14,441 nt of DNA from Gemmatimonadota bacterium (GTDB taxonomy: Bacteria; 4572-55; J002), in the NCBI GenBank assembly GCA_003697105.1, contig RFFQ01000018.1:1-14441 (forward strand). The letters run 5' to 3'. Below the pieces are notes generated by a model. It saw nothing but the letters and a program-made list of their open reading frames with translations, did not search any database and had not been told where the DNA came from. The position numbers and the translations under genes were made by a program. Positions 1-12,616 of this stretch are shown piece after piece (positions within the stretch are counted from its first letter, which is position 1; each line of letters opens with the position of its first letter).

Positions 1-2
1 AC

Positions 3-164
3 GTTGAGCGTGGAGAATCCCCCGCTGTTGAACCCCAAAGGGACGATACCGCACCGGAAGAATCCTCCGCAGATGAAGCTGAGCGTGGAGAATCCCCCGC
101 TGTTGAACCCGAAGCAGGGGAAGCGCACGGGATCGTGGCGGACAGCGAAGAAAAACCTGCGTAA
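3..164 (+). CDS. C-terminal tail of an unidentified protein (5' truncated)
   Basis: Reading from base 3 gives 53 residues ending at TAA 162-164. The tail is very acidic and rich in Glu, Ala, Pro, Asp and Ser, the composition of a disordered C-terminal extension. The decapeptide ERGESPAVEP occurs twice, exactly 25 residues apart. I prefer this frame to the ATG-containing frame at 4-198: the latter gives a basic, Pro/Asn/Lys-rich peptide and runs into the stem of the terminator, whereas this frame stops 8 bases before the stem. The gene starts left of the window, so its function cannot be read here. Such acidic tails occur on many proteins (RNA-binding, ribosomal, chaperone) and are not diagnostic. 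Confidence 0.6.
   Translation, partial: VERGESPAVEPQRDDTAPEESSADEAERGESPAVEPEAGEAHGIVADSEEKPA
6..110 (+). repeat. 30-bp direct repeat pair, 75-bp period
   Basis: A 30-bp segment at 6-35 recurs without mismatch at 81-110. The offset of 75 bp is exactly 25 codons, so the repeat keeps frame and duplicates the peptide ERGESPAVEP in the acidic tail. DNA identity as well as peptide identity suggests a recent tandem duplication inside the gene. More copies may lie to the left of the window. Confidence 0.9.
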
Positions 165-172
165 ACTGTCTG

Positions 173-220
173 AGTTGCACCAAGGGAATACAATATAGAG
201 TTCCCTTGGTGCAACTTTTT
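173..220 (+). terminator. Rho-independent terminator
   Basis: A perfect 16-bp inverted repeat pairs 173-188 with 201-216 around a 12-base loop and runs directly into a T tract at 216-220. It lies 8 bp after the TAA of the acidic-tail gene and separates it from the next operon. The upstream arm begins with AG and the downstream arm ends in CT plus T residues, so it could also work weakly in the reverse direction, but no minus-strand gene needs it. Confidence 0.92.
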
Positions 221-402: not shown

Positions 403-2478
403 ATGAAGCGCCATCTAATCGCCATCCTGCACAGCTATTCTGAGATATTTTTTTTGCGGAGTATCGGGATGGGTGCCGGATTTATTGCTTTAACGTTTCT
501 GGTTCCCAATATGGCATTCGCGGGATTATTAGCGATCCTTTCTGCTTATCTGTTTGCCTACTTTATTGGTATGAAGCCGGACTTCCTCAAAACGGGCTTT
601 TATACATATAATCCGCTGTTAGTTGGGCTGGCGATTGGGTATTTGTTCAAGCTGACGCCCCTCACCATCTTTTTTGTGGTCTTCACCGGTATTTTTACGT
701 TTGTGGTGACGATCATGCTGGACAGCCTTTTCTGGCAATATTTACGTCTCCCGATTCTAAGTGTTCCGTTTGTGGGGATTACTTCCATTGTCTATCTTGC
801 GGCTTCCAATTATACCAATTTGTTTGTTACGGCGTTGTATCCGCATCCCGTTTTACCGGTAGTAGAGGCTCAATTACCGTTTTGGGTTACCGGGTTTTTA
901 AAGTCGTTGGGTGCGGTTTTTTTTCTACCCAACGTATGGGCAGGGCTAGGAATTGCCGTGATTTTACTTGTCGCTTCCCGGATTCTGTTCATGTTAGCGG
1001 TGGTGGGTTATTATAGCGGGTCGTTGCTGATCGCCCTTTTGGTAGGGTCACCGGCGCAGGCGTTTGCGGACATCAATCATTTCAATTTTATTTTGATCGC
1101 GATGGCCGTGGGTGGGGTTTTCCTTATTCCGTCTCTCAAAAGTTATGTGCTGGCATTGATTGCGGTTTGTTCGGCAACGGTGTTATTGGATGCGGCTAAA
1201 ACCTTTTGGTCTGATTATGGTATTCCCGGCTTTACCTTGCCGTTTAATGTTGTCTCCCTCTCGTTTGTCTATGTTTTGGGCTTGATTGCACATCCTTTGG
1301 TGGTGAAGTACATCAAGCAGACGCCGGAAGAAACGCTGGATTACTATCTTTTGAACTTACGCCGGTTTCGCGGTTCCGAGCGGACCCTTAGTTTACCGTT
1401 TTCAGGAACGTGGCAGGTCTGGCAAGGTTTTGATGGCTCATGGACGCATCAGGGGAGTTGGCGTTACGCATATGACTTTATCATTGTGGATGATAAGGGG
1501 AATAGCTACCAACATGAGGGAACAGTTCTCACCGATTACTACTGTTTTCGGAAGCCGGTGCTGTCGCCGGTGCGCGGGCGCGTGGTACGGGTTATTTCGC
1601 ATTTGCCGGATAACCCGATTGGTGAGGTCGATAAAAGTGAGAATTGGGGTAATCTGATCATCATTGAAGACCCGCGGGGATTTTATGTGGAAATCTCGCA
1701 TTTTGCTCACGATTCCATCCGGGTGAACAAAGGGGATTGGGTCGAGCGGGGCACGTTGTTGGGACTGTGTGGCAATTCCGGCTATTCCCCCCAACCCCAT
1801 TTGCACGTTCAAGTACAAGCCACCTCGGAAATTGGCTCGTACACCTTGCCCTTTAGCTTTGTAAGTTATACGATTGATCACCAGTTTTACGCCAATGATG
1901 TGCCGCCGGAAGGCGCCCAAATTGAACCCATCTATCCCGATAAACATCTGGACGCTGTGACGGCATTTATGCTCGATGACCGCTATGAATATCGGGTGCT
2001 TAAAAACGGTCAGCCGGTGGGGTACGTTAGGCTGACGGTGCGAATGGCTCCGGATGGCACGTTTTATCTGGATTCCGGTAAAGGACAACTTTATTTTGGC
2101 AAGCATGAAGGTACTTTTTATATGTACCGCCTCGAAGGGAATTGTCACTACTTGAAAATGATATTTTTAGCCCTGCCCCGGTTACCGCTAAGTGCAAAAG
2201 TAGGCTTATCTTGGCAGGATCATATCCCAGTGGGAGTCGTGGCACGAGGAATCACAAAAATGGGTATCCGCTTTTTAAGCTCCTTCTATCACGGGTTAGC
2301 CCATATCCAAACCACGTTGACGGTAACACCCGCGGGTATCGAGGGCAAAATCGAATCCAAGTTACTGAACTTAACCCAACATACCTACCTTGAACTGGAT
2401 GATTACGCAGGGATTAAATCTGTGAGAATTGGCTCGCTCGAATTAAGGAGAAATGAAGATGAAACTATCCGTGGATAA
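403..2478 (+). CDS. Urea transporter fused to M23-family peptidase domain
   Basis: The 691-residue protein has two recognisable parts. Residues about 1-310 are a urea-transporter (UT family, PF03253-type) channel made of two homologous halves: half one has the motif around YNPLLVGLAIG (69-79) and an LP box at LPILSVPF (116-123); half two has FNFIL..AVGGVF (227-240) and TLPFNV (278-283). This family passes urea, and sometimes other small amides, down a gradient through the inner membrane. Residues about 345-475 are an M23 zinc-peptidase (LytM-like) domain: H349 and D358 (in YAYDF) and PHLHV with H466 and H468 are the likely zinc and catalytic residues, and SHFAHDS (432-438) plus the NSGYSPQ segment are typical. 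Residues 480-691 are an unassigned domain. No Shine-Dalgarno site precedes 403. A Met at 469 has GGAG 7 bp upstream, but SYSEIFF before it resembles the conserved N-terminus of bacterial UTs, so 403 is preferred. The last 20 bp overlap the next gene. Confidence 0.88.
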   Translation: MKRHLIAILHSYSEIFFLRSIGMGAGFIALTFLVPNMAFAGLLAILSAYLFAYFIGMKPDFLKTGFYTYNPLLVGLAIGYLFKLTPLTIFFVVFTGIFTFVVTIMLDSLFWQYLRLPILSVPFVGITSIVYLAASNYTNLFVTALYPHPVLPVVEAQLPFWVTGFLKSLGAVFFLPNVWAGLGIAVILLVASRILFMLAVVGYYSGSLLIALLVGSPAQAFADINHFNFILIAMAVGGVFLIPSLKSYVLALIAVCSATVLLDAAKTFWSDYGIPGFTLPFNVVSLSFVYVLGLIAHPLVVKYIKQTPEETLDYYLLNLRRFRGSERTLSLPFSGTWQVWQGFDGSWTHQGSWRYAYDFIIVDDKGNSYQHEGTVLTDYYCFRKPVLSPVRGRVVRVISHLPDNPIGEVDKSENWGNLIIIEDPRGFYVEISHFAHDSIRVNKGDWVERGTLLGLCGNSGYSPQPHLHVQVQATSEIGSYTLPFSFVSYTIDHQFYANDVPPEGAQIEPIYPDKHLDAVTAFMLDDRYEYRVLKNGQPVGYVRLTVRMAPDGTFYLDSGKGQLYFGKHEGTFYMYRLEGNCHYLKMIFLALPRLPLSAKVGLSWQDHIPVGVVARGITKMGIRFLSSFYHGLAHIQTTLTVTPAGIEGKIESKLLNLTQHTYLELDDYAGIKSVRIGSLELRRNEDETIRG
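2445..2450 (+). promoter_or_regulatory. Shine-Dalgarno site deciding the beta-barrel gene start
   Basis: AAGGAG lies inside the end of the upstream gene. It is 8 bases before ATG 2459 but only 2 bases before the in-frame ATG 2453, so 2459 is the likelier start. Confidence 0.75.
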
Positions 2479-3409: not shown

Positions 3410-3426
3410 CGAAAGGACGGAATGTT

Positions 3427-4692
3427 ATGAGAACGGTCTGTCTTCTCTGTTTTAGCTTGATGATGGCGACCGCCTATGCCGGCACGCCGTTTCGACCCCA
3501 AGCTCACGAGGGGAGGGTCTCTCAACGGGCACTTGACCTGCAAGTGCAGATTCAACCGGATCGGGCAATACCTGACCAATTTCCGTTGGAAACCGGTTAC
3601 CGCGCCACGGAAATGCGCGGTCAGGAATGGCAAAATAATCAGTGGCAGGAGGCGTGGCGGTATTTGTACAGCTACAATACCGAAGACCAACTGGTGCAGA
3701 CCATGTTACAACTCTGGTATCAAGGTGTCTGGTATGATTACCAACGCTATACGTATAGCTATGATGACGAGGGGAATCGCACCCAAACTCGGGTGGAAAC
3801 GCTGGAAGGCACGGAGTGGAATAACACCGAACGCTATCAATACAGCTTTGATGCCAACCACCGCTGGTCGGCAACCCTCTATCAGGTATGGGAATCCAAC
3901 GTCTGGGTCAATTCTTGGCGAGAAAGTTATACCTATGACCATGACGGCACCTGGATTGAAACCTTCGTGGTGGTTTGGTACGAAAACACATGGATCAATT
4001 ACGAAAAATACCGGTACACCTACAATGATGAAGACCAATGGATTGAAACGTTGAATCAAGCATGGCTGGAGTTCGATTGGGTCAATCAATGGCAGGAATT
4101 ATATCACTACGGAGATACCGGGTTGTGGACGGAAACACAGGTGCTGTTGTGGGAAGATAACCAATGGCTTAATGATTGGCGTTGGAGTTACAGCTATGAT
4201 GACGAGGGCTACCCCGATCAAACCATTGGGCAGGATTGGGTAGATGAGTGGGTTAATGAGACCCGCTACCGTTATGAATACGATACCAACTCTAATCTGA
4301 ACACCAAATTGATTCAAACGTGGGAAAACAACCAATGGGAAAACTCCGAACAATATCTTTATACCTACGAAGAATACACGGCGGTTCCACTTGATCCGGA
4401 GGTATTCGTACCGGAGCAATCCCGATTCGTGGCGTATCCCAACCCGTTTAATCCCACAACGACCATCGAATTTGACCTGCCCCAAGCGGGAACGGTCACC
4501 TTGCAGATTTTTGATGTGCGGGGCTATCTGGTAGCATCTTTGATTGCCAATCAGTTTTATAATGCCGGCTCATATCGTGTGCGGTGGGATGGTACTGGTG
4601 ATACCCATCGTCTGCTACCCGCCGGAGTGTATACCGCTCGACTTCGCACGCCGTTTACCACGCAAACCATCCCCCTGATCGGGATGAAGTAA
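3427..4692 (+). CDS. Secreted Trp/Tyr-rich repeat protein with T9SS sorting domain
   Basis: The chosen start, ATG 3427, has AGGA 9 bases upstream and gives an excellent signal peptide cleaved after AYA (residue 18); the longer frame from 3337 would lie inside the previous gene. The protein has 421 residues. Residues 67 to about 318 form nine tandem 29-residue units, roughly W-x4-W-x-N-x2-R-Y-x-Y-x-Y-D-x-[DE]-G-x4-[QE]-T. They resemble the YD-like repeats of secreted FCB-group proteins, probably a beta-rich, carbohydrate- or surface-binding solenoid. Residues about 337-421 are a FlgD-like/T9SS type A sorting domain starting YPNPFNP and ending in a basic residue (MK). Such tails direct proteins through the type IX secretion system, often to surface attachment. 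The T9SS machinery itself is not in the window. Its function is unknown; a surface adhesin or binding protein is a guess. Confidence 0.85.
   Translation: MRTVCLLCFSLMMATAYAGTPFRPQAHEGRVSQRALDLQVQIQPDRAIPDQFPLETGYRATEMRGQEWQNNQWQEAWRYLYSYNTEDQLVQTMLQLWYQGVWYDYQRYTYSYDDEGNRTQTRVETLEGTEWNNTERYQYSFDANHRWSATLYQVWESNVWVNSWRESYTYDHDGTWIETFVVVWYENTWINYEKYRYTYNDEDQWIETLNQAWLEFDWVNQWQELYHYGDTGLWTETQVLLWEDNQWLNDWRWSYSYDDEGYPDQTIGQDWVDEWVNETRYRYEYDTNSNLNTKLIQTWENNQWENSEQYLYTYEEYTAVPLDPEVFVPEQSRFVAYPNPFNPTTTIEFDLPQAGTVTLQIFDVRGYLVASLIANQFYNAGSYRVRWDGTGDTHRLLPAGVYTARLRTPFTTQTIPLIGMK
3625..4371 (+). repeat. Nine 87-bp coding repeats (29-residue units)
   Basis: Units start at residues 67, 96, 125, 154, 183, 212, 241, 270 and 298; the eighth is one residue short and the ninth is partial. 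Conserved positions are paired Trp residues, a [WN]-N step, and a YxYxYD core. At DNA level the units have diverged clearly, so this is an old protein repeat and not a recent tandem duplication. Confidence 0.85.
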
Positions 4693-4708: not shown

Positions 4709-5341
4709 ATGAAACGGATTGCCGGGCGAGTTATCGTTATCGTGATGATGTTCACCCAGTCCGCCCTCGGACTCACGGGCGAGGAGATCAAAACAGCTTA
4801 CGAGCGTTCCTACACCTATGAAAAAATCCAAGATTATCAAAATGCGATTAAAGCGATGTTGGCTGTCTTTAATGCCTACCCGGAAGGTTATACCGTCAAT
4901 GTGCGGTTGGGTTGGCTCTATTATCTGAATCAAAATTATGCCAACGCTATCGATCATTATCAAAAAGCGATGAAAACCGCGCCTTATGCGGCAGAAGCAA
5001 AGTTGGGATATTTATTACCGCTATTGGCACAGGGCAAATATAGCGAGGTGGAAAAAATCGCTTATCAAATTCTAACCATTGATTATTACAATTATTACGC
5101 GAATTTACGATTAGCCCTTGCCCTACGGATGCAGGAGAAGTACGATCTGGCACAAACCGTCGTAGAACGGATGTTGTTGCTCTACCCGACGGATGTTCCC
5201 TTTTTGGTGGAACAGGCGCTGGTTAAACAGGCACAAGATGATCCGGAAGCCGCTACGGCCATCTTTTGGGATGTACTCATTTTAGACCCCGAAAATGTAA
5301 CCGCCAAAATGTATTTTCAACAAATGGATGCGCCCGAATGA
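4709..5341 (+). CDS. Periplasmic tetratricopeptide (TPR) protein
   Basis: The 210-residue protein starts with a signal peptide (hydrophobic core about 8-16, likely cut after ALG at residue 21). From about residue 30 on it consists of consecutive helix-turn-helix TPR units: DYQNAIKAMLAVFNAYPEG, then the LGWLYYLNQNYANAIDHYQKA type, then further units with the LALALRMQEKYDLAQ pattern. TPRs are protein-protein scaffolds, here probably in the periplasm. AGGGAGGG (4698-4705) gives a strong ribosome site 16 bp after the preceding stop. Its TGA overlaps the ATG of the next gene by 4 bp (ATGA at 5338-5341), so translation is probably coupled. A periplasmic scaffold linking the UT-M23 protein and the barrel would fit the context but is inferred. 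Confidence 0.85.
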   Translation: MKRIAGRVIVIVMMFTQSALGLTGEEIKTAYERSYTYEKIQDYQNAIKAMLAVFNAYPEGYTVNVRLGWLYYLNQNYANAIDHYQKAMKTAPYAAEAKLGYLLPLLAQGKYSEVEKIAYQILTIDYYNYYANLRLALALRMQEKYDLAQTVVERMLLLYPTDVPFLVEQALVKQAQDDPEAATAIFWDVLILDPENVTAKMYFQQMDAPE

Positions 5342-6024
5342 GCGACTATCACATCAATATTTTTTACGATGATGCGGCGCGGGTCTATGTGGCGGACATC
5401 CCCGACCTGCCCAATTGTTCCGCTACCGGATCGACGCCGGCAGACGCCTTGGCAAACGTTGAACGGAAAAAACAGGCTTGGTTGAACACCGCTAAAGCGC
5501 AAAATTTACCCTTGCCGCCACCGGTCTATCGCCCTTCTCGCTATACCTTGGAGATTGTGCCCGCCCGGGAAGAGCATCTCCCCGCCGTTATTCCCATCTG
5601 GCAAGAATTTATGGCGTATCATGCCGAAATTGATCCCTATTTTGCACCCAAACCCCGTGGCGAAGTGGAATTTGAAACCCATTTGAAAACCCTGATCCAT
5701 GCCCCCCAAGCACACGTCCTCGTGGCGGTGGATCGGGATCAGGTGGTGGGGTATGCCATTGCGGAGATATATCATTATTCGCCGGTGTTTGCGCACCAAC
5801 AGTACGGCTTTATCTCGGAAGTTGCCATCAGCCAGCCCTCCCGCGGGCGGGGAATTGGGCAGAAATTGGTCGCGCGCATCTATGATTGGTTCCGCGAACA
5901 CGAGATTGAACGGGTCGAACTGCGAGTCTTTAGTGCCAACCGGAGCGCCTATCAATTTTGGCAAAAACAAGGTTTTCAGCCTTACCTCGAAGTGATGTAC
6001 CGGAATTTGCAACCGGAAAAATGA
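5338..6024 (+). CDS. HicB-like domain fused to GNAT N-acetyltransferase
   Basis: The start is ATG 5338, inside the ATGA overlap with the TPR gene; the open frame extends further upstream but within that gene. The product has 228 residues and no signal peptide, so it is cytoplasmic. Residues about 1-60 match the HicB-type antitoxin fold: strands with YHINIFYDD, YVADIPDLPNC, and an STPADALANVERKKQAWL helix. After a Pro-rich linker (PLPPPVYRP), residues about 69-228 form a GNAT acetyltransferase: motif A around VAISQPSRGRGIG with the acetyl-CoA loop R169-G174, and motif B with NRSAYQFWQKQGF (201-213). GNAT enzymes transfer acetyl groups from acetyl-CoA to amines, but the substrate cannot be read from sequence. 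No hicA-like toxin gene is present, and the HicB part has no DNA-binding extension. It may serve as a dimerisation or binding module and not as an antitoxin. Confidence 0.82.
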   Translation: MSDYHINIFYDDAARVYVADIPDLPNCSATGSTPADALANVERKKQAWLNTAKAQNLPLPPPVYRPSRYTLEIVPAREEHLPAVIPIWQEFMAYHAEIDPYFAPKPRGEVEFETHLKTLIHAPQAHVLVAVDRDQVVGYAIAEIYHYSPVFAHQQYGFISEVAISQPSRGRGIGQKLVARIYDWFREHEIERVELRVFSANRSAYQFWQKQGFQPYLEVMYRNLQPEK

Positions 6025-8432: not shown

Positions 8433-9623
8433 ATGAAAATTGCCTATTTTACTGAGAGTTTACCTCCGAAAACCGACGGGGTTGCCAAAAGTTTGACCAA
8501 ACTGGCAGAAACCCTATTGCAACGTGAGATTGATTTCCGGTTTTATTGCCCGGCGAAGCCCGATGAAACGGTCGCTTGGCACCATCGAGTCCGTAAAGTG
8601 GTCTCTGTACCGTTTCCGCTGTACAGCTATTATGATATTGCCCTGCCAATGTTTGACCGGCTTGAACCGGAACTGGATGAATTTGCCCCGGAAATTGTCC
8701 ATGTTGCCAGCCCGACGTTGCTCGGTATTTTTGGGCAAGATTATGCTCGCCGGAGGCATATTCCGGTGGTGGGCAGTTTCCACACCAACTTTGTCTCGTA
8801 TTTTCGTTATTACAACATTCAGTTTGCGGAACAATTCGGTTGGAATATCCTGCGCTGGTTTTACGGGCGGTGTGCGGTGGTCTATGCCCCATCCCGAAGC
8901 ACTGCCGCCGATTTAGCTGCCCACGGGATTGGCAACGTGGAACTTTGGCAACGAGGTATTGAATTGGAACGCTTTTCGCCCCACTTACGAGATATGGAAT
9001 TGCGCCGTTCTATCGGGGCAGAACATATCCCCATTGTGCTCTTTGTTGCTCGCTTGGTTAAAGAAAAGGATTTAGATGATCTGATGGCGGCGGCGGAACT
9101 GCTAACGTCTTGGGGACATACCTTTAAGGTGGTGTTTGTCGGTGATGGTCCCTATCGTTCGGAGATTGAACAACGCTTGCCGGATGCCTATATCGCCGGA
9201 TTTCAGTATGGAGAAGATTTAGCCCGCTGGTATGCCTCTGCTGATATTTTCGCCTTTCCTTCTACGACCGAAACTTTTGGTAATGTGATTTTGGAAGCCT
9301 TTGCCTCCGGTCTTCCGGTGGTGACGGTCAACAAAGGGGGTGTTCAGGATTTAGTCACTTCCGGTTTGAATGGATACATTGCACAGGCAAATAATCCGCT
9401 GGATTTTGCTGAAAAAATTCAACTCCTGCTTGCCGATGAAGACCATCGCCGGACACTCGGTCAAAACGGGCTTAAAACCGCCCGTAATTTCAGTTGGGAC
9501 CGGATCAACGGGGCACTTATTGAGAGCTACCAACGGGTTATTGAAGTGCATCAGGACGCGTCACTCGCCACGGAAACCTACCAGCCACCGACGGGATTGG
9601 TAGATAAAAAGAAGGCTTTTTAG
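8433..9623 (+). CDS. GT4-family glycosyltransferase (MgtA/SQD2-like)
   Basis: The 396-residue protein is of normal length for a GT-B retaining glycosyltransferase. The N-terminal Rossmann half opens with MKIAYFTESLPPKTDGVAKS, with the Gly-containing acceptor loop at 14-17. GSFHTNFVSYFRYY (H117) is typical of the branch containing bacterial alpha-mannosyltransferases (MgtA) and plant/cyanobacterial SQD2. The C-terminal half has ARLVKEKDL (R207, K212) for the nucleotide-sugar phosphates, VGDGP, and the EX7E motif in TETFGNVILEAFASG (E280, E288). It should add a sugar from a nucleotide donor to a lipid or glycan acceptor on the cytoplasmic membrane face. Donor and acceptor cannot be predicted. 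AGGA (8421-8424) is 8 bases before the ATG. The next glycosyltransferase begins 7 bp after its stop. Confidence 0.9.
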   Translation: MKIAYFTESLPPKTDGVAKSLTKLAETLLQREIDFRFYCPAKPDETVAWHHRVRKVVSVPFPLYSYYDIALPMFDRLEPELDEFAPEIVHVASPTLLGIFGQDYARRRHIPVVGSFHTNFVSYFRYYNIQFAEQFGWNILRWFYGRCAVVYAPSRSTAADLAAHGIGNVELWQRGIELERFSPHLRDMELRRSIGAEHIPIVLFVARLVKEKDLDDLMAAAELLTSWGHTFKVVFVGDGPYRSEIEQRLPDAYIAGFQYGEDLARWYASADIFAFPSTTETFGNVILEAFASGLPVVTVNKGGVQDLVTSGLNGYIAQANNPLDFAEKIQLLLADEDHRRTLGQNGLKTARNFSWDRINGALIESYQRVIEVHQDASLATETYQPPTGLVDKKKAF

Positions 9624-9630
9624 GGGTTTT

Positions 9631-10797
9631 ATGAAAATTTGTGACATCACTCACGCCTACACCCCCAGTAGTGGAGGCATTCGCACCTACATTGATGCCA
9701 AACGGCAGTATATTGAACGTCACACGGATGGGGAACATCTGCTGATCATTCCCGGAGCAACAGATCGTGTCAGTCGGGAGGGTCGTCTCACCTGTTATGA
9801 AGTCAAATCTCCCCTGATTCCAAACTGCGAACCGTACCGCTTTTTTCTGCGGTTGGGTCGTCTGGTCACTATTTTACGCCACGAGAAACCGGCGCTGATC
9901 GAATTTGGCACGCCGTACACCTCCCCGTGGGCGGCAGTTATCCATCGCTGGCAACATACCTGCGCCCTTGTGGGCTATTACCACACGGATTTTCCGACGG
10001 CTTACGTCGAACCTGTCATTGCGAAAGTCTTAGGGGATTTTTGGGGGACGCCTGCCCGGGCATTGGCAGTCAATTACATTCGCTCGGTCTATAACCGCTG
10101 TGATGCGATTATCACGTCATCAGACCAATACTACGAAAAACTAGCAGAATACCGGATTGAACCGGTACATTACATCACGTTGGGAGTCGATTTGGAGACC
10201 TTCAACCCGCGCCGGCGAGACCCTCACTTACGGCAGGAATTGGGTGTGGCAGAAGACGGATTTTTGCTGGTGTATGCCGGGCGCTTTGATAGCGAAAAAA
10301 AGGTCGATGTGATTGTGGATGCGGTGTACCAGTTACCGGCTACTCTGCCGGTCAAATTGGTACTGATCGGTGAGGGACCCATGAAGCCGGAATTGCTCCG
10401 CCGGGCGGAAATGGATGACCGGCTCTCCATCTTGCCCTTCCAATCCGATAAACGCGCGTTAGCATCCTTGCTGGCTTCGGCAGATGTGTATGTCACCGCC
10501 GGTCCTTACGAAACATTTGGGTTATCGGTTATTGAGGCGCAAGCTTGCGGTCTGCCGGTGGTGGGTGTCAATGCCGGTGCGTTGACCGAACGGGTTCCGG
10601 CAGGAATAGGCTTTTTGGGGGCGGTGGATTCTTCGGAAGAGATGGCAAAAAACATCCTACGGGTGATCCACCACCCGCACCGCCACGAAATGGGGCAAAA
10701 GGCGCGTGAGTGGGTGGCCGCTCGTTTTTCATGGGATAAAACGTTTCGTGCCACATTTGATCTGTATAGCGAATTGGTTAGCGGTTTCCAGTTTTAG
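9631..10797 (+). CDS. GT4-family glycosyltransferase (second of a pair)
   Basis: The 388-residue protein has GT-B architecture. It begins MKICDITHAYTPSSGGIRTY, with the Gly-rich acceptor loop at 14-16. GYYHTDF (H118) corresponds to the SFHTNF segment of its neighbour. AGRFDSEKKVD carries the conserved Arg/Lys pair, IGEGPMKPEL follows, and ETFGLSVIEAQACG holds the EX7E motif (E294, E302). The gene lies 7 bp after the first glycosyltransferase, and its weak ribosome site AGGGG overlaps that stop, so the two are probably translated together. The two proteins share the fold but differ widely in sequence, so they probably add successive sugars to one acceptor. A glycolipid or lipopolysaccharide-type glycan is plausible. 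No transporter or polymerase gene is beside them. Confidence 0.9.
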   Translation: MKICDITHAYTPSSGGIRTYIDAKRQYIERHTDGEHLLIIPGATDRVSREGRLTCYEVKSPLIPNCEPYRFFLRLGRLVTILRHEKPALIEFGTPYTSPWAAVIHRWQHTCALVGYYHTDFPTAYVEPVIAKVLGDFWGTPARALAVNYIRSVYNRCDAIITSSDQYYEKLAEYRIEPVHYITLGVDLETFNPRRRDPHLRQELGVAEDGFLLVYAGRFDSEKKVDVIVDAVYQLPATLPVKLVLIGEGPMKPELLRRAEMDDRLSILPFQSDKRALASLLASADVYVTAGPYETFGLSVIEAQACGLPVVGVNAGALTERVPAGIGFLGAVDSSEEMAKNILRVIHHPHRHEMGQKAREWVAARFSWDKTFRATFDLYSELVSGFQF

Positions 10798-10921: not shown

Positions 10922-12616
10922 TTGAAAACGAAGGCCTTAACCTTCAATCTACTACTAATACTAGCCGCGTACCAATGGGTTTGGTCCCAAAGTAGTTACA
11001 TTAATGTTGACGTTGATATTGGAAATAGTCAACTTGTTGTAACGGGTCGAGGTCACACTCAGGGGTCACCCGCTGTTACAGTTGAACCTCAAGACTATTG
11101 TGACTGGAATGGTACCCCACCTATGGACGAGGTTTGGTTACATTTGGATTTTAGGAAAGAAGGGCATATGAATCATACCCCTCCGGTTTTCATTGATAGT
11201 TGTGAAGACGAATATTACTTTGGACCTGAAAGTGAACATCATGATACATGGTTAGCCGGAAGAATTGATTATACTTCCGGTCAACAAACCGCTATATTTG
11301 AATACAGACTAAACTTTCGGCCAGAAGGCTTACCAGGGGGTGCTACGGATTACGATAGTGGTGTTTCGCTGGAATATCCAGCATTAACACCTTTATCTTC
11401 AGTTGTTCGGTGTACGGAATTCTATGGAAACTTCGATGCGGTCTATCTTCGTGATCACACGGTCTCTGTCCTAGAATACAATCATATTCACGACAATCGC
11501 CGGAACGGGGTTGCGGGATCACGCAGTGGAGGAATCATTCAAACTCTCAGAACTAATACATTCGCGAATAATATGGGTACTGAGATTTTGGCATGGGAAC
11601 ATGTTTTTCGACAAATGACCAATGGCAACAATCAGATTACGGATGTGGAAGATTCCCCCGGTTACGATCACTATTTACTGCTCATGGTTGGTTGGGATGG
11701 TATTACTCCGGTTGATGTTCGAGGCAACAATTTTACGTATGACGATAACCCCGAACGATTTTATCCGAGTTACGAAGCCTTTATTTTTGATGAAGGCGGT
11801 GGCAGTGGCGACGAAGAACTGCTTCTGCAAGCCGGTGTTGCCCAAATGAACGAACAGCAATACGAATCCGCCGCCGGAACATTTCAGCAATTGATTGAGA
11901 CATATCCGGCGACTTCGGAAGCACGGACAGGTTTGAATTATCTTTATTTTATCGAAAACTATACTGAACAGGATTTTGCTGCTTTGCGCGATTATATGAC
12001 AAGTCTGGATGTGGGAGATAATTCCCTAATGCTGGCATTGATCGAAGAGATCGAGACCAAAACGTATCGGGATGAAAGGGACTATCTAACGGCAATTGAA
12101 CGATTGGAAGCCATCATTGCCAACCCGCCAGATGAGGAAACGTTGTTGTACGCGCTGATCGATGAAGCATACTGCTACCTGCGGTTAGAAGAAGGGGGCG
12201 GTTTGCGGTCAGCAAAGCCGCAGTGCAGCGTTCAACCTCAATCCTATGAGGAATATCAGGATATTACGCGAGAACTCCGAAAAGAACTCGCTCAATTACA
12301 AAGGTTTGTGGAACAAGGAAACACTCAAACCCAAACTCCTGAATCCTATTCCCTAACGGTATATCCGAACCCATTTAATCCACGCACCACCATTCATTTT
12401 GACTTGTCTCAGTCGGGTGAAGTGTCGCTAAAGATTTATGATTTAACCGGGCGGCTGGTTCGTGTTCTCGTCAGCGAAACAAGAGAAGCAGGCTCTTATT
12501 CTGCCAGTTGGTACGGCACTGATGAGCAAAATCAAGAAATGCCTTCCGGCATCTACATTCTGCATCTGGAAACAGATCATCATAGTCAGTCTAAACCCTT
12601 GATCTTGTTAAAATAG
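10922..12616 (+). CDS. Secreted protein with TPR-like helices and T9SS sorting domain
   Basis: TTG 10922 is the best start: it has a spaced GGGAG and gives a signal peptide (hydrophobic LLLILAA, likely cut after VWS or SQ at about residues 22-23). The 564-residue product has three parts. Residues about 25-290 are beta-rich, with short Asn-containing turns such as YNHIHDNRRNGV and TNTFANNMGTEI that look like turns of a right-handed beta-helix. After the linker EGGGSGD (about 290-297), residues 298-465 are helical and TPR-like (AQMNEQQYESAAGTFQQLIE). Residues about 478-564 are a FlgD-like/T9SS type A sorting domain starting YPNPFNP (481-487) and ending in LLK. It should be exported by T9SS to the surface or medium. 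I know no function for the combination. The gene stands alone between its promoter and a strong terminator. Confidence 0.82.
   Translation: MKTKALTFNLLLILAAYQWVWSQSSYINVDVDIGNSQLVVTGRGHTQGSPAVTVEPQDYCDWNGTPPMDEVWLHLDFRKEGHMNHTPPVFIDSCEDEYYFGPESEHHDTWLAGRIDYTSGQQTAIFEYRLNFRPEGLPGGATDYDSGVSLEYPALTPLSSVVRCTEFYGNFDAVYLRDHTVSVLEYNHIHDNRRNGVAGSRSGGIIQTLRTNTFANNMGTEILAWEHVFRQMTNGNNQITDVEDSPGYDHYLLLMVGWDGITPVDVRGNNFTYDDNPERFYPSYEAFIFDEGGGSGDEELLLQAGVAQMNEQQYESAAGTFQQLIETYPATSEARTGLNYLYFIENYTEQDFAALRDYMTSLDVGDNSLMLALIEEIETKTYRDERDYLTAIERLEAIIANPPDEETLLYALIDEAYCYLRLEEGGGLRSAKPQCSVQPQSYEEYQDITRELRKELAQLQRFVEQGNTQTQTPESYSLTVYPNPFNPRTTIHFDLSQSGEVSLKIYDLTGRLVRVLVSETREAGSYSASWYGTDEQNQEMPSGIYILHLETDHHSQSKPLILLK

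Follow-up and report, generated by a model that had tools for sequence, protein, structure and literature searches.

A urea-transporter fold fused to an M23 peptidase is part of a conserved gene cassette in several phyla

M23 metallopeptidases and domains of the YmcC/LolA-like type are usually located outside the cytoplasm. The peptidase-containing ABC transporters of the C39 type, known from the export of ribosomally synthesised and post-translationally modified peptides (RiPPs), combine a peptidase and an exit path in one chain. In the biosynthesis of lasso peptides the leader peptides are recognised by discrete RiPP recognition elements (RREs) through a [Y/W]xxPx[L/V/I/F/A] motif (PMC13381572, PMC12710340). 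The known urea transporters (UTs) consist of ten helices (PMC10541013), and in UT-A both ends of this ten-helix chain lie inside the cell (PMC12649947). The UT pore passes only small solutes and has a constriction of 2–3 Å in the known structures.

The window that we analysed, a stretch of 14,441 nt (contig RFFQ01000018.1 of the Gemmatimonadota assembly GCA_003697105.1, forward strand), was reported in a first-pass annotation to encode a urea channel and an M23 peptidase in one polypeptide. This is indeed the case, since a single ORF of 691 codons matches both Pfam profiles above their cut-offs: UT (PF03253, cut-off 25 bits) at residues 7–291 with 206.9 bits (E 4.9e-61, profile positions 3–290 of 292) and Peptidase_M23 (PF01551, cut-off 28.7 bits) at residues 384–473 with 43 bits (E 5.4e-11). 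The HLH site of the M23 domain is formed by residues 466–468, and the first zinc-ligand pair, H349/D358, is located upstream of the Pfam match. Among solved structures the UT part matches dvUT and human UT-A and UT-B, and the M23 part matches TagE, lysostaphin and other M23 enzymes. The C-terminal domain (CTD, residues ~488–691), which like the gene neighbourhood was not covered by the earlier annotation, has no match in Pfam. Modelled alone, it forms a beta half-barrel (pLDDT 83.5) with a weak YmcC/LolA-like resemblance; the best structural comparison gave a Z-score of 8.8 (3fzx, rmsd 4.1 over 151 residues), and a Foldseek search with this model yielded E values of 0.02 or worse and no firm fold match. 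The full-length AlphaFold model, built from six sequences, was poor (pLDDT 48.5, ~25 in the M23 part) and too weak to be used for the M23 part, and our structural reading is therefore confined to the CTD model. The features of the locus are listed in the table.

Table. Features of the UT-M23 locus in the window (positions are those of the 14,441-nt stretch)
Feature	Position	Strand	Basis
Contig start shared with the end of contig C9 (location of PqqD, ATP-grasp and decarboxylase of the cassette)	1..75	+	75-bp identity
3' end of an ORF (396 aa once joined with C9) between decarboxylase and UT-M23	1..198	+	contig join
UT-M23 fusion gene, 691 aa	403..2478	+	single unbroken ORF
UT (urea transporter-like) membrane domain, residues 7–291	421..1275	+	aligns with dvUT and human UT-A/UT-B structures
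Conserved linker TPEETLxxYL...R, residues 297–330, directly after TM10	1291..1392	+	basic, predicted cytoplasmic
M23 metallopeptidase domain, residues 331–486	1393..1860	+	profile match, structure match, invariant residues
C-terminal domain (CTD), residues 488–691	1864..2475	+	beta half-barrel model, weak YmcC/LolA-like resemblance
Outer-membrane beta-barrel-like protein, signal-peptide-like N-terminus, 318 aa	2453..3409	+	sequence pattern, no Pfam match
TPR protein, signal-peptide-like N-terminus, 210 aa	4709..5341	+	homologues

The fusion is real and is widespread across several phyla. Five full-length single-ORF homologues from other assemblies, four of them in metagenome-assembled genomes (MAGs) titled Ignavibacteria or Melioribacteraceae and one in a MAG titled Nitrospinia, are 53–60% identical to the window protein over 687–691 residues. 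In the class to which the genome of locus L005 belongs, a UT domain is encoded in 73 of the 391 genomes, in 57 of these 73 within a frame of at least 600 aa. In a domain-wide sample of 290 genomes there were 15 with a full-length UT match, and of their UT frames 13 (the window's own included) are at least 690 aa long, one is a 524-aa frame with M23 and one is a UT of 361 aa alone. That the architecture might be conserved had been anticipated, and its recurrence in unrelated phyla confirms this. The full-length homologues in other assemblies and the class-wide long frames rule out an artefactual assembly join, and the possibility that UT and M23 are separate genes in the relatives is ruled out too, a single cassette (L115) being the only one with a UT lacking M23. 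The supposition that the fusion is functionally undescribed also agrees with our survey of the open-access literature, where no description was found of UT with M23, of UT with PqqD, or of PqqD with ATP-grasp and a decarboxylase.

All 48 aligned fusions have the M23 residues H349, D358, H433, H466 and H468 without exception, the aligned sequences being related and not independent, with one locus represented twice and some rows from close relatives. The fusion thus possesses all the catalytic and zinc-binding residues of M23 metallopeptidases such as lysostaphin, TagE, ShyA and Csd3. It differs from them in its first motif, H-x8-D instead of the usual H-x3-D, in being tethered to the membrane and in its predicted position on the cytoplasmic side.

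The conserved cassette that surrounds the fusion gene is the larger finding, beyond the fusion itself. In more than 40 loci the gene order is PqqD-like protein (where detected), ATP-grasp ligase, PLP decarboxylase (DDC), UT-M23, barrel-like outer-membrane protein and TPR protein, the exported barrel-like gene standing before or after the TPR gene depending on the locus. With median gaps of −4, 0 and +5 nt at the first three junctions, the genes are spaced as closely as those of a coupled operon. The ATP-grasp gene is present in 56 of the 57 class genomes with a UT frame of at least 600 aa (Fisher p 9e-59) and in only seven other genomes of the class, six of which have shorter or truncated UT frames; all eight class genomes in which the only complete UT is a stand-alone one are devoid of it. 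In the domain-wide sample, UT was found in 14 of 14 ATP-grasp genomes and ATP-grasp in 14 of 15 genomes with a full-length UT (p 6e-23), and in the fifteenth (G490) the DNA upstream is masked, with the decarboxylase end still in view. It is almost certain that UT-M23 functions together with the cassette enzymes, and the cassette indicates an undescribed pathway for the synthesis and probable export of a small molecule, and not urea uptake or cell-wall work.

A few loci deviate from this scheme. One genome (G382) has the fused gene and no ATP-grasp match, and at the locus of the Nitrospinia MAG (L006) no ATP-grasp gene is found nearby. The L115 cassette contains two ATP-grasp genes, and its UT has a linker-like motif and no M23 domain, so M23 is not strictly required by the cassette. 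In genome G118 the cassette is present twice, at both ends of one contig (L041 and L080), the second copy with a frameshifted UT-M23; this is probably an unresolved circular overlap.

The genome from which the window derives most likely also holds the whole cassette, split over two contigs. Contig C9 carries, at its end, the ATP-grasp and DDC genes, preceded by a PqqD-like ORF (locus L083), and its final 75 bp (in cassette direction) are repeated exactly at the window start; on account of this end identity the two contigs most likely abut. The region contains short degenerate repeats, which probably caused the assembly to break here. Between the ORF completed by the join and UT-M23, at about 173–220, there is a perfect inverted repeat of 15 bp with a run of T residues behind it; this terminator-like hairpin is a probable terminator, and UT-M23 may thus be transcribed from a promoter of its own in this genome. 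As both the extra ORF and the hairpin separate UT-M23 from the enzyme genes, co-transcription is not given in this genome. Downstream, the start of the barrel gene overlaps the end of UT-M23, and homologues occupy the same place in loci L004, L005, L007 and L008. The TPR protein is the most conserved envelope partner (52–61% identity). The barrel and signal-peptide calls were made by reading the sequences themselves. A protein with a T9SS tail (3424–4692) is encoded between the barrel and TPR genes in this genome, and a second protein with a T9SS-type C-terminal sorting domain is found at 10922–12616, both tails being FlgD-like/Por_Secre_tail.

The best solved match of DDC is the N-citrylornithine decarboxylase 7kh2 (E 1.9e-63), and its closest characterised relatives are FslC, an N-citrylornithine decarboxylase, and BtrK. 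DDC shares with FslC the C-M-x-x-D motif, where DAP decarboxylases have C-E. This difference suggests that the far end of its substrate lacks the free amine found in DAP and ornithine and may be, for example, an amide. What distinguishes DDC from FslC and BtrK is an extra RRE-like tail and the pairing with ATP-grasp and UT-M23, with no siderophore synthetase among the cassette genes. The DDC copies score less than 245 bits against the lysA model TIGR01048 and stay below its cut-off of 297.9 in all genomes tested; a separate LysA above the cut-off is present in 14 of 26 genomes. The identity of DDC with the cell's LysA is thus rejected for these 14, and in the other genomes, including that of the window, DDC is still a candidate for this role. 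The ATP-grasp protein is distantly related to carbamoyl-phosphate synthase.

The extra tail at the N-terminus of DDC has the consensus KKYE[KR]PxIxKxxxGxMNKFG, with Y/FxxP conserved in 45 of 45 sequences, the glycine in 44 of 45 and the lysine in 43 of 45. The PqqD-like protein of the cassette is an RRE of the PqqD family (PF05402, E 6.9e-13 in L005), and an ORF of this kind was also read in the window's own genome. The cassette is thus similar to the lasso-peptide and PQQ systems with a discrete PqqD-type RRE, both in the PqqD-family protein standing beside modifying enzymes and in the YxxPx[I/V/L] recognition-like motif; in contrast to these systems, the motif is located on the N-terminus of the decarboxylase and not on a separate precursor peptide. 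A separate RiPP precursor with the recognition motif was looked for and not found: none of 422 small ORFs in the 1.5 kb upstream of ATP-grasp had the motif [YW]E[KR]Px[LVIFA]. The simplest reading, supported though indirectly by these motifs, is that the cassette PqqD binds the tail of DDC itself.

On this basis we tentatively propose, with somewhat less than even confidence in the chain as a whole, that UT-M23 provides the inner-membrane part of a conserved cassette for biosynthesis and export, in which it would serve as both exit channel and processing peptidase. PqqD would bind the decarboxylase tail (YE[KR]PxI...G.MNKFG), which would dock or carry the intermediate, the ATP-grasp ligase would form an amide and the decarboxylase would remove the carboxyl group of the distal amino-acid end. 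The M23 domain, facing the cytoplasm, would then release or trim the product, which, being small, could leave the cytoplasm through the UT pore and be taken across the outer membrane by the TPR protein and the barrel. Such an arrangement would parallel, by analogy only, the C39 peptidase-containing exporters of the RiPP systems in having a peptidase and a membrane exit path in one chain; UT-M23 differs in having no ABC transporter, the place of which would be taken by the UT fold, and in using a zinc peptidase. The more specific pathway type, in which a decarboxylase with its own leader-like carrier tail is held by the RRE and loaded by ATP-grasp, and the UT channel and the cytoplasm-facing M23 domain release and export the product, is a rather doubtful possibility at present.

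The side of the membrane on which the M23 domain is exposed is critical for this proposal. In the loops of the fusions the content of lysine and arginine is 0.107 per residue on the side of the two termini and 0.042 on the other side, and the bias has the same direction in 48 of 48 fusions and in 9 of 9 UT-only proteins; from this distribution the C-terminus, and hence the M23 domain, is predicted to be in the cytoplasm, as in the known UTs. When the internal loops are taken alone, 43 of 48 fusions agree, and the alignment of 48 fusions reveals no further helix between TM10 and M23. The number of cysteines per 100 residues is 0.95 in M23 plus CTD, comparable to ATP-grasp (0.71) and DDC (0.78) and well above the mature TPR protein (0.18). 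The orientation of the M23 domain and the CTD towards the cytoplasm is thereby supported, if indirectly. The possible use of a C381–C456 disulphide as a periplasmic marker was dropped, because this pair co-varies only partly (both cysteines in 32 sequences, only C456 in 10).

The charge-based topology conflicts with the usual extracytoplasmic site of M23 and LolA/YmcC-like domains. The first-pass annotation had suggested a tie of the channel to the cell wall, which would mean a periplasmic M23 domain cutting or binding peptidoglycan and the UT part being its membrane anchor or a wall-gated channel. The usual location of these two folds, the intact M23 active site and the envelope nature of the TPR and barrel partners speak in favour of such an arrangement, which we nevertheless consider unlikely, given the uniform positive-inside bias with no additional TM helix between UT and M23, the cytosol-like cysteine content and the fact that the constant partners are cytosolic biosynthetic enzymes. 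The related M23 proteins argue against it as well. Relatives encoded on plasmids of Thermus, Thermomicrobium and haloarchaea are anchored by short membrane segments as well, the nearest ones being those of Thermus and haloarchaea; in two tethered proteins of the same subtype, from Thermus thermophilus (L131, 4812–5771) and the haloarchaeon Haladaptatus (L132, 3758–4684), basic residues directly follow the last membrane segment. Since haloarchaea, to our knowledge, have no murein, M23 proteins of this kind need not serve a murein wall.

The proposed export function also depends on the properties of the UT part. It resembles the SLC14/UT channels (dvUT, 3k3f; UT-B) in that the whole ten-helix domain is matched over nearly its full length, and differs from them in the fusion to M23 and CTD, the loss of the second polar urea-site residue, the lack of an accompanying urease and the nearly constant association with the cassette. 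The position of E187 of dvUT, a urea-site residue, is occupied by A171 in the window protein and by A, L, S, F, Y, G, I or T, never by E or Q, in the 48 fusions, whereas eight of nine UT-only proteins have E or Q there. At the position of dvUT Q24, the first urea site, the window protein has E14, the UT-only proteins have Q in nine of nine cases and the cassette fusions have Q or E in 28 of 42. The window protein therefore does not have a polar Q/E at both pseudo-symmetric sites (Q24 and E187), and its score of 98.5 bits with the NCBIfam model TIGR03441 (urea_trans_yut) does not reach the equivalog cut-off of 274.6. A convincing urease alpha was found in none of 46 genomes, 38 of which carry the fusion, the single match above the cut-off being partial; urease-linked urea uptake is thus unsupported. 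The role of a urea channel initially assigned to the protein is not supported by these data, which favour, again indirectly, the view that the fusion pore is not a canonical urea site, and which are compatible with a pore of altered selectivity or one without conduction.

If the pore does not conduct, the degenerate UT fold might be a scaffold that gathers PqqD, the ligase and the decarboxylase at the membrane, where M23 would act on a protein or peptide substrate. In line with this, all fusions have lost the polar residue at the second urea site and vary at the first, and the membrane part looks exchangeable, because the short membrane segments that carry the M23 relatives of Thermus and haloarchaea are unrelated to it. 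At the same time, the pore-lining residues F17, L73, F174, F227 and L231 and also N228 are strongly conserved in the fusions, it is the UT and not the M23 domain that is retained in L115, and the conserved outer-membrane partners suggest that something crosses the envelope, which makes a mere scaffold as improbable as the periplasmic peptidase. That UT is a genuine uptake channel for urea, ammonia or an amide, feeding ATP-grasp or the decarboxylase with M23 in a regulatory role, is very unlikely, since the full-length profile match, the Q/E frequently retained at the first site and the distant kinship of ATP-grasp with carbamoyl-phosphate synthase are outweighed by the second site, the low urea_trans_yut score and the lack of urease, and the outer-membrane partners and the peptidase would be left unexplained.

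Should the proposed biosynthesis-and-export function of UT-M23 be correct, it would place an M23 peptidase on the cytoplasmic side of the membrane, represent a re-use of the urea-channel fold for export and mean that RREs can recognise a metabolic enzyme as well as precursor peptides. The six-gene system is compact, testable and spread over several phyla, Melioribacter roseus being a named carrier. Because every full-length UT protein found in the domain-wide sample occurs with the cassette or a part of it, it may often be the case that an annotated bacterial urea transporter belongs to an unknown biosynthetic pathway.

Further downstream in the window, a single ORF at 5338–6024 encodes a GNAT acetyltransferase after a weak HicB-like N-terminal stretch (E 0.002). 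Two adjacent GT4 glycosyltransferases are encoded at 8433–10797, the second of which is close to N-acetylglucosaminyl phosphatidylglycerol synthase (E 1.8e-90, below the cut-off).
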